64,000 bases of DNA from an uncultured Granulosicoccaceae bacterium (GTDB taxonomy: Bacteria > Pseudomonadota > Gammaproteobacteria > Granulosicoccales > Granulosicoccaceae): positions 1-64,000 of the forward strand of contig CALKXD010000089.1 of NCBI GenBank assembly GCA_938003855.1, written 5' to 3'. The notes beneath the pieces were generated by a model. That model was not told the origin of the DNA. It worked only from the letters and a program-made list of their open reading frames with translations, and searched no databases. A program made the position numbers and the translations under genes. Position 1 is the stretch's first letter. Each line of letters opens with the position of its first letter. Of the stretch, positions 26,573 through 29,046 are shown piece after piece.

Positions 26573-27373
26573 CTATTCAAAGAACACGCTCACAGAACCC
26601 AAAGATCCATAGTCGGCTGTGATGGTGGTTTGGTGTGCCGTCTCAACCGGCCGGATAAACGAACCGGATATAACAACCTGTCCGGCAGTGATTGCCTGAT
26701 CATACTGCGCCAACCGGTTCGCCAGCCAGACTATCCCCTGAGCCGGGTGATTCAGCACTCCGGCACCCAGACCGGTTTCTTCAACTTGTGCGTTGCGGGA
26801 TACAATCGCACCCACCCATCGTAAGTCGATATCCGTAGGCTTTCTTGGAAACCCTCCCAGCACAATTCCGGCGTTGGCAGCGTTATCGGCAATGGTATCA
26901 ACGACGGTTCTGATACTGCCGGACTCCGGATCGCGGCGCACGATGCGGGTATCGAGAATCTCCAGTGCCGGACAGATGTAGTCGGTGGCGTTGAGCACGT
27001 CGAAAAGCGTCACGTTCTTATTCGGCAGATCGTCTTTGAATATAAAAGCGATCTCCGCTTCCACACGCGGCTGAATAAAGCGCGTGGCCGGCACGGTACC
27101 GCCATTCTCAAAAAACATGTCATCGAACAGCACCCCGGAGTCGGGGATATCGATATTTAGTGCCTGCTGCATGGCACGCGACGTCAGACCGATTTTCCAG
27201 CCCTTGACCGTCGCCCCCTGTTTGACCTTGTGATCGACCAGCGCGCTCTGTACCGAGTAGGCATCGTCCATGGTCATATCCGGGTACTGCCCGGACAGCA
27301 AGGCGATTTGAACACGGTTTTTTTCAGCCTCGTACAAACGGCTCGCGGCATCCGTTAATTGCTGAGCGTTCAC
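26573..27373 (-). CDS. hpaH: 2-oxo-hept-4-ene-1,7-dioate hydratase
   Basis: Adds water to 2-oxohept-4-ene-1,7-dioate in the homoprotocatechuate meta-cleavage pathway. The 266 residues align by eye along their length with E. coli HpaH: AEKNRVQIALLSGQYPDMTMDDAY, GWKIGLTSRAMQQ, FIQPRVEAEIAFIF (metal-binding acidic residues), NATDYICPALEILDTR and TIADNAANAGIVLGG. It starts with GTG and overlaps the upstream hpaG stop by four bases (GTGA), so the two are translationally coupled. Last gene of the hpaFGH operon. Confidence 0.92.
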   Translation of the reverse strand: MNAQQLTDAASRLYEAEKNRVQIALLSGQYPDMTMDDAYSVQSALVDHKVKQGATVKGWKIGLTSRAMQQALNIDIPDSGVLFDDMFFENGGTVPATRFIQPRVEAEIAFIFKDDLPNKNVTLFDVLNATDYICPALEILDTRIVRRDPESGSIRTVVDTIADNAANAGIVLGGFPRKPTDIDLRWVGAIVSRNAQVEETGLGAGVLNHPAQGIVWLANRLAQYDQAITAGQVVISGSFIRPVETAHQTTITADYGSLGSVSVFFE

Positions 27374-28251
27374 GATGGAGATCCTTCCTCGTCGACCACT
27401 GTATTACTCAGCGATCCTATGCCTTCGGCCGAGACCTCTACCACATCCCCCGGCACCAGCCACTTCGGTGGATCAAAGCGGGCACCGGCGCCGGTGGGTG
27501 TGCCGGTAACGATGATGTCACCGGGGACCAGCGTGGTAAAGGTCGAGATGTAATTGATCAGATAACGGAAATCAAACATCATGCGACCGGTTCGATCATC
27601 CTGCCGCAGCTCGCCGTTGACGGTCGTTGTCAGGCGGATATCGGCAATCTGGTCCTCCGACTGATAGGGCACCAGCCATGGGCCAATCGATCCGCTGGAA
27701 TCAAAATTCTTGCCCTGAGTGACATTAAACTTCGCATGGCGCAGCCAGTCTCGCAGACAGGCCTCGTTACACAGCGTCACCGCAGCGATATGCTCCAGCG
27801 CCGTGTCGCGAGGGATGTGCCGCCCGGCTTTACCGATAACCAGAACCACTTCGCCTTCATAATCAAATTGAGTAGAGGCCGCTGCCCTGACGATACCTTG
27901 CCCGTGGCCGACGAAGGATCGGGCAAAACGCGGGAACAATGACGGATACGGGGGCGCTTCCTGTCCGTCTTTATATTCCTCGTTGCGGGCCGGGTAATTC
28001 ACGCCCACGCAGAGAATTTTTTCAGGCCGGGTTACCGGGATGCAAAATTCAATTTCATCAACGCCGAAATCGGCAGACAGCCCCCCGGCATCGTCGGCCA
28101 GTTTATTCAGGCTGCCCTGCTCTATGACCTGCAGCAGACTATCCCATTTAGACGCATAGCGCGCAGAGAGATCAACCACGCCATCGTCGTGGATAAGACC
28201 GTATTTTAAAACGCCCTGATGATTAAAGCTCGCAAATTTTGCGTGTGTCAA
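27370..28251 (-). CDS. hpaG: Fumarylacetoacetate hydrolase family protein, probable HpaG-type decarboxylase/isomerase
   Basis: A 293-residue FAH-fold enzyme: ILCVGVNYPARNEEY, metal site FDYEGEVVLVIGK, GKNFDSSGSIGPWLV and IVTGTPTGAGARFDPPKWL. Located between hpaF and hpaH, it most likely performs the intervening step, decarboxylation of 5-oxopent-3-ene-1,2,5-tricarboxylate (OPET). E. coli HpaG is a fused two-domain protein of about 430 residues; this is one domain, as in split HpaG1/HpaG2 systems. Start is TTG with GGAG six bases upstream. The FAH family also includes acylpyruvases, so the activity is inferred from context. Confidence 0.75.
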   Translation of the reverse strand: MTHAKFASFNHQGVLKYGLIHDDGVVDLSARYASKWDSLLQVIEQGSLNKLADDAGGLSADFGVDEIEFCIPVTRPEKILCVGVNYPARNEEYKDGQEAPPYPSLFPRFARSFVGHGQGIVRAAASTQFDYEGEVVLVIGKAGRHIPRDTALEHIAAVTLCNEACLRDWLRHAKFNVTQGKNFDSSGSIGPWLVPYQSEDQIADIRLTTTVNGELRQDDRTGRMMFDFRYLINYISTFTTLVPGDIIVTGTPTGAGARFDPPKWLVPGDVVEVSAEGIGSLSNTVVDEEGSPS

Positions 28252-28330: not shown

Positions 28331-28717
28331 TCAGGCCGGTCTTAAACGCGGGTGAATCGCATTGCGCTTCCAGCTTAGCGCGGCGTTGATCTCACGAATT
28401 TCAAACGACAAGGCAAAGTGAGGTGCAGCCAGCTGTGCGGCTAAGAATTCCTCGAGCATACTGAATATGGCATCGCCGATGCTTTTTTTGTCGGCGTCTG
28501 CCCGCCCCTCGCCCAAGCGCAACGATAGATCAATGAAACTGTTCTCGGGCAGATCATCAGCGACAGTGTATACCTCGCAGCGCACACCTCGGACACGCAC
28601 TGCACCAACTTCAAAAAAACCGGTGGCCAGCGCTGTCGCGAGAATTTTCTCACTCATCGCTTTCAGGTCAACCTGCCCTTCAAGATTTGCCGAATATTCA
28701 AAACTAAAATGTGGAAT
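28331..28717 (-). CDS. hpaF: 5-carboxymethyl-2-hydroxymuconate delta-isomerase, ATT start
   Basis: Isomerises 5-carboxymethyl-2-hydroxymuconate in homoprotocatechuate degradation. The family uses the amino group of Pro-1, exposed after removal of the initiator Met, as catalytic base. In frame, the codons read ATT-CCA-CAT-TTT-AGT, giving (M)PHFSFEYSANL, which matches E. coli HpaF (MPHF...) exactly where it matters. AGGAG (28729-28725) lies seven bases before the ATT at 28717. Between the upstream in-frame TAA and this ATT there is no ATG, GTG or TTG; the first ATG (28657) would drop 20 residues including Pro-1. The 128 residues match family length (126 in E. coli). First gene of hpaFGH. Confidence 0.85.
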   Translation of the reverse strand: MPHFSFEYSANLEGQVDLKAMSEKILATALATGFFEVGAVRVRGVRCEVYTVADDLPENSFIDLSLRLGEGRADADKKSIGDAIFSMLEEFLAAQLAAPHFALSFEIREINAALSWKRNAIHPRLRPA

Positions 28718-29046
28718 GACCGTACTCCTGCTAAACCGTTGAAGAAATTGTTAACCCGCACAGTGTCATCACAGTATGCCGCATGATTCACCCTACCATC
28801 ATCCACCGCAACCAACCCGGGGACGAGCTAATTGATCATCGCTGAAAGCTTGCCGCTTGCAGAAAACTGCACGGGCTTAAACACCACCAGCCGATTGCCG
28901 GTAGCGCCAGTGCCGGTTCTCTGTTCAGGAACGCAAATAATGTATCGCAATCGATCATTTTGTGCCATAAAACGGCACCGGTCAGCAGGTTGCTCGCACG
29001 CACCAACCAGCTGCGCCGATAAAAACCGTACCGCACCGGAACCCTA
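28718..29046. other. Divergent intergenic region hpaF / waaA
   Basis: About 330 bases with no supported gene. It must contain the hpaFGH promoter; no hpa regulator gene is adjacent and no operator-like palindrome stood out. Confidence 0.5.

Follow-up and report, generated by a model that had tools for sequence, protein, structure and literature searches.

A probable AUU start codon directly before the catalytic proline of HpaF in a Granulosicoccaceae bacterium

AUU start codons and the case of hpaF

The infC gene of Escherichia coli, which encodes the initiation factor IF3, has an AUU start codon and is under IF3 autoregulation. The hpaF gene of the bacterium studied here, which is a CHMI gene encoding a predicted isomerase, resembles infC in its putative AUU start, IF3 being expected to discriminate against both codons, and infC of the same genome is likewise near-cognate (ATA). 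Unlike hpaF, infC encodes the factor that reads its own codon, which forms a feedback loop, whereas hpaF is a catabolic gene without such a loop. In E. coli pcnB, an AUU start limits expression (Binns and Masters, 2002, as described in PMC13009471). As in pcnB, AUU would be carried in hpaF by a gene other than that of an initiation factor, and the output limitation considered for hpaF is that of pcnB, although pcnB is an RNA-processing gene.

An earlier note on this DNA, made from the sequence, held that ATT starts are known mainly from infC and pcnB; the list is longer and includes pncA, cvfC1 and a Deinococcus deserti gene, for which PMC5559785 cites an AUU start. The closest parallel to hpaF is Borrelia burgdorferi pncA (BBE22), a metabolic enzyme gene with an AUU start in which, as in hpaF, a catalytic residue is missing from the protein when a later start is annotated (PMC13398362). 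The pncA start is proven by genetics, biochemistry and a crystal structure, whereas that of hpaF is known from sequence, and the two cases concern unrelated enzymes and phyla. Staphylococcal cvfC1 (AUU), ccpN and citZ (both AUA) have non-canonical starts with strong Shine-Dalgarno (SD) sequences, and in Staphylococcus aureus reporters in poor medium the output from AUU and AUA was about 10% of that from AUG (PMC13009471). As in hpaF, the cvfC1 and ccpN starts are conserved and combined with a strong SD, and cvfC1 is first in its operon; unlike hpaF, the staphylococcal starts were measured by reporters, with Ribo-Ret in addition for cvfC1 and ccpN, in a Gram-positive background with an extended SD. 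Streptomyces sigR has a GTC start that is repressed by IF3 (PMC5472188); like that of hpaF, this start is non-canonical, conserved across species and misannotated, but it is a GTC, belongs to a sigma factor gene, and its repression by IF3 is demonstrated. AUU starts are thus already known, though from only a few genes, and hpaF is a further, unusually well anchored case; a literature search with enzyme name and start codon found no earlier report of an AUU start in hpaF.

In CHMI, Pro-1 acts as the catalytic base. It is difficult to prove a bacterial AUU start from sequence, since most N-termini are unanchored; the hpaF start is fixed by chemistry, because the mature enzyme has to begin with Pro-1. 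The case illustrates how an active site can be lost unnoticed in gene calling, and Pro-1 tautomerases are suggested as a natural group in which to survey non-canonical starts.

Gene context and start region of hpaF

The window, which is the whole stretch of 64,000 nucleotides analysed, lies on a contig of a 6.8-Mb draft genome, and the relatives found carry the labels Granulosicoccaceae or 'Chromatiales bacterium (ex Bugula neritina AB1)'. A local hpaFGH cluster begins with hpaF, and an hpaG-like gene and hpaH follow it downstream in the same direction (Table 1). Another contig (C50) carries hpaE, a gene for a MarR-type regulator and a glyoxalase-superfamily dioxygenase gene, which we read as hpaD, encoding a putative ring-cleavage enzyme. 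The presence of hpaE, the regulator gene and the dioxygenase gene together with the hpaFGH cluster suggests that the 4-hydroxyphenylacetate/homoprotocatechuate pathway is probably present. In this pathway HpaF acts after HpaD and HpaE. The description of hpaF in the earlier note as encoding the first enzyme of a catabolic operon therefore had to be dropped, hpaF being only the first gene of the local cluster. In one of the relatives (G004), hpaF stands directly behind a PhyH dioxygenase gene and ahead of a convergent adhC, with neither hpaG nor hpaH between. Since hpaF lacks an adjacent hpaG there, the first position in an operon is not a general reason for ATT.

Table 1. Positions of hpaF, its initiation signals and the downstream genes in the window
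Feature	Positions	Strand	Remarks
hpaF (CHMI) coding sequence, ATT to TGA	28331..28717	minus	Mature protein of 127 aa from Pro-1
ATT initiation codon (predicted)	28715..28717	minus	Strand re-read; same codon in L003 and L031
Shine-Dalgarno AGGAG, 7-nt spacer	28725..28729	minus	GGAG core kept in 4/4 species
In-frame TAA, upstream bound of the hpaF frame	28751..28753	minus	Strand re-read and translation
First in-frame ATG of hpaF, mature codon 20	28655..28657	minus	Gene-caller start; missing from G011 and G004
hpaG-like FAA-hydrolase family gene, TTG start	27370..28251	minus	Downstream of hpaF, same direction
hpaH, 2-oxo-hept-4-ene-1,7-dioate hydratase, GTG start	26573..27373	minus	

On the minus strand, the frame reads from the bounding stop as TAA CAA TTT CTT CAA CGG TTT AGC AGG AGT ACG GTC ATT CCA CAT TTT AGT TTT GAA TAT TCG, and the start region on the coding strand is AGGAG-TACGGTC-ATT-CCA-CAT-TTT-AGT. 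The Pro codon is immediately 3' of ATT, and this proline (P1) is invariant in the CHMI alignment. Over the full interval between the in-frame TAA and Pro-1, the window sequence contains no ATG, GTG or TTG. The claims of the earlier note that ATT directly precedes Pro-1 with AGGAG 7 nt upstream, and that a canonical start is missing from this interval, were borne out by the re-read strand and by the ORF listing with translation, respectively. Also as the note proposed, a gene caller limited to ATG, GTG and TTG truncates HpaF, the loss being 19 mature residues including Pro-1 (20 with the initiator). A promoter scan of the hpaF leader gave no signal above chance.

CHMI membership was assigned on a whole-length match to Pfam PF02962 (CHMI; cut-off 26.5 bits), and HpaF read from Pro-1 scores 144.6 bits (E 2.6e-42) over profile positions 1-124. 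With the stricter NCBIfam equivalog NF011605 the score is 74.2 bits, below the cut-off of 215. The alignment of HpaF with the solved CHMI structure 1otg (1-122) starts at residue 1, as does that with 4jcu. The view that an ATT start preserves the catalytic Pro-1 held.

Ala takes the place of Pro after ATG (MAHLSFEYSANLE, MAHFxLEYS) in five CHMI relatives from alphaproteobacterial records (L097, L103, L104, L110 and L111), and the same exchange occurs in three from Gammaproteobacteria (L151, L152 and L154); in all eight the remaining N-terminus is kept. Tautomerases without Pro-1 are reported mainly from another subgroup (PMC5818174).

Conservation of the start region and origin of hpaF

This hpaF type was found in 4 of the 48 genomes of the family that were searched, and the codon before Pro-1 is ATT in three of the four species, i.e., the window genome, G011 and G004. 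G011 and G004, whose HpaF proteins are each 75% identical to that of the window, have ATT in the corresponding position, 7 nt behind GGAG; G012, the closest relative (86% protein identity), has TTG with AGGAG at 6 nt. The GGAG core thus lies 6-7 nt upstream of the start in all four species. Since the closest relative uses TTG, ATT is not indispensable; its recurrence in G011 and G004 leaves the reading of the earlier note standing.

The hpaF tree, ((window,G012) 98/88,(G011,G004) 92/73), pairs the window with G012 and G011 with G004, so that by parsimony ATT was most likely ancestral in the four-species clade and later changed to TTG in G012. Two independent gains of ATT keep some probability, as the grouping of G011 with G004 is not strong. 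The G004 row of the tree consists of two joined contigs, 30 overlapping residues having been entered twice as an insertion, which leaves the N-terminus unaffected and calls for caution in reading the placement of G004. G004 hpaF is split over these contigs (L031 = C193, L143 = C315), whose 90-nt overlap contains 2 mismatches, perhaps reflecting two strains or copies.

At fourfold-degenerate sites of hpaF, the window is only 30-41% identical to the other three, which is near saturation; the corresponding values are about 35-42% in adhC and hpaG. The 14-nt block from GGAG to ATT is identical at 13/14 positions between the window and G011, 11/14 between G011 and G004, and 10/14 between the window and G004, and the sequence upstream of it is largely unalignable among the clade members. 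The weight of this block is limited, because it was picked after the fact and covers three lineages only; the comparison speaks well for a functional initiation region but only moderately for selection acting on ATT itself. Downstream of the start, the N-terminus PHF-FEYSAN is kept while synonymous codons differ among the clade members, which argues beyond chance that this part is coding.

As ATT recurs in two related species whose DNA has diverged strongly, it looks like a real, lasting weak start signal and not like a sequencing error. The assemblies of the four species that make up the clade are all drafts, which leaves some room for an error at a true ATG. This is very improbable, because the same ATT occurs in three separately assembled, 75%-identical genes, and in G011 also in a named public record (L033). 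The persistence of ATT across near-saturated divergence indicates a possible stable evolutionary state for a catabolic enzyme.

The start is ATG, GTG or TTG in all of 125 other non-redundant CHMI genes, a set drawn from 80 named CHMI loci, same-family loci and 27 loci of the class after removal of duplicates and of the four clade members. The SD energies of the ATT-started hpaF genes are -6.4 to -7.4 kcal/mol, compared with 0 to -5.9 kcal/mol in ATG-started CHMI genes of the same genus. Because the SD of ATG-started Rhizobium CHMI relatives is stronger still (-10.3 kcal/mol), the hpaF SD was probably inherited and is not necessarily a compensation for ATT. Outside the clade, the nearest genes to this hpaF type are from Rhizobium (L034-L050; 57-61% identity), whereas the CHMI found elsewhere in the same genus is a different one, with 41-45% identity. 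The closer relationship to Rhizobium than to the same-genus CHMI suggests that hpaF was replaced horizontally in the four-species clade.

Initiation at AUU and alternative explanations

With a probability of roughly 0.87, hpaF is translated from AUU with the help of a strong SD and ordinary fMet-tRNA, and the output is probably reduced and IF3-sensitive. The AGGAG with its 7-nt spacer would set AUU in the ribosomal P site, where the initiator fMet-tRNA (anticodon CAU) would pair with it except for a mismatch at the third position. As residue 2 is proline, the initiator Met would then be removed, leaving Pro-1 as the catalytic base. By analogy with the known cases, we infer that IF3 discriminates against this AUU, so that HpaF output per mRNA would be about one order of magnitude below that from AUG and should increase at lower IF3 levels; a throttling of hpaF expression by ATT, as the earlier note supposed, is plausible in this sense. 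AUU would have been present in the common ancestor of the four hpaF-type species and have been replaced by UUG in one.

Two other positions of the start can be weighed against AUU. The ATG at 28657 is the first canonical start in the hpaF frame, and its use would give a protein without Pro-1; this gene-caller view has very little probability, since the codons ahead of it encode the conserved N-terminus with synonymous differences, and since the ATG is missing from G011 and G004. There the next canonical start is GTG at codon 41; a protein begun at this codon would lack a third of the enzyme, which makes an internal start untenable. An upstream non-canonical codon such as GTC or ACG is similarly improbable. 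GTC is immediately 5' of ATT in the window and G011, and GTC is able to initiate, as in sigR (PMC5472188), but G004 has GTT at this place, the SD spacing would be only 4 nt or less, and a start at GTC would yield a Met-Ile-Pro product with Pro-1 buried.

Whether AUU has a role of its own is a separate question from where translation begins. We give about even odds to the explanation that ATT is the true start without a regulatory role, a weak start tolerated by drift because the demand for CHMI is low and the SD strong. The TTG of G012, the hpaG and hpaH starts, which range over TTG, GTG and ATG in the clade comparison, and the retention of ATT by G004 in a different gene neighbourhood favour a low HpaF output that is tolerated; the strong SD of the ATG-started Rhizobium relatives also fits, indicating that the SD predates or is independent of ATT. 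Against drift, three lineages keep ATT at near-saturated neutral divergence though a single substitution would give ATG, which favours a low output that is selected. Switches from AUG to AUU are moreover very rare, with 1 per 61,358 ancestral AUG starts in reconstructions, a rate based on annotations that disfavour ATT (PMC5622118). That AUU is kept by selection as an IF3-linked throttle, tying a post-ring-cleavage step to the translation state in this clade, is a tentative proposal that is rather doubtful at present. If true, it would extend such control to a catabolic enzyme, beyond the housekeeping and regulatory genes for which it is known.

A changed initiator tRNA, or a clade-wide relaxed start choice by which ATT would be ordinary in these bacteria, is highly unlikely to explain the hpaF start, and no support for it was found. 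The initiator tRNA found in the genome has the anticodon CAU, and a search of the genome for an altered one found none. ATG is the start of two other tautomerase genes of the genome, so that ATT does not go with Pro-1 genes in general here. In a survey of all reading frames of the window against the matching G012 and G011 contigs, hpaF was the only clear gene with homology far upstream of (more than 20 codons beyond) its first canonical start. pcnB was considered as a second ATT gene of the genome and set aside, its N-terminus being too variable and unanchored in the clade to call.

The infC gene of this genome (L112, G000:C79) starts with ATA behind TGGAGGAC, and no canonical start lies between the stop and the infC N-terminus. 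The same-genus copies (L113, L114, L116, L117 and L119) also have ATA before the conserved N-terminus. A near-cognate IF3 start is thus in place, which is consistent with normal IF3 control. As no ATG, GTG or TTG precedes the infC N-terminus here, automated annotation would truncate IF3. The infC genes of the genus appear to have an SD-like GGAGGA or GAGGAT 5' of ATA.
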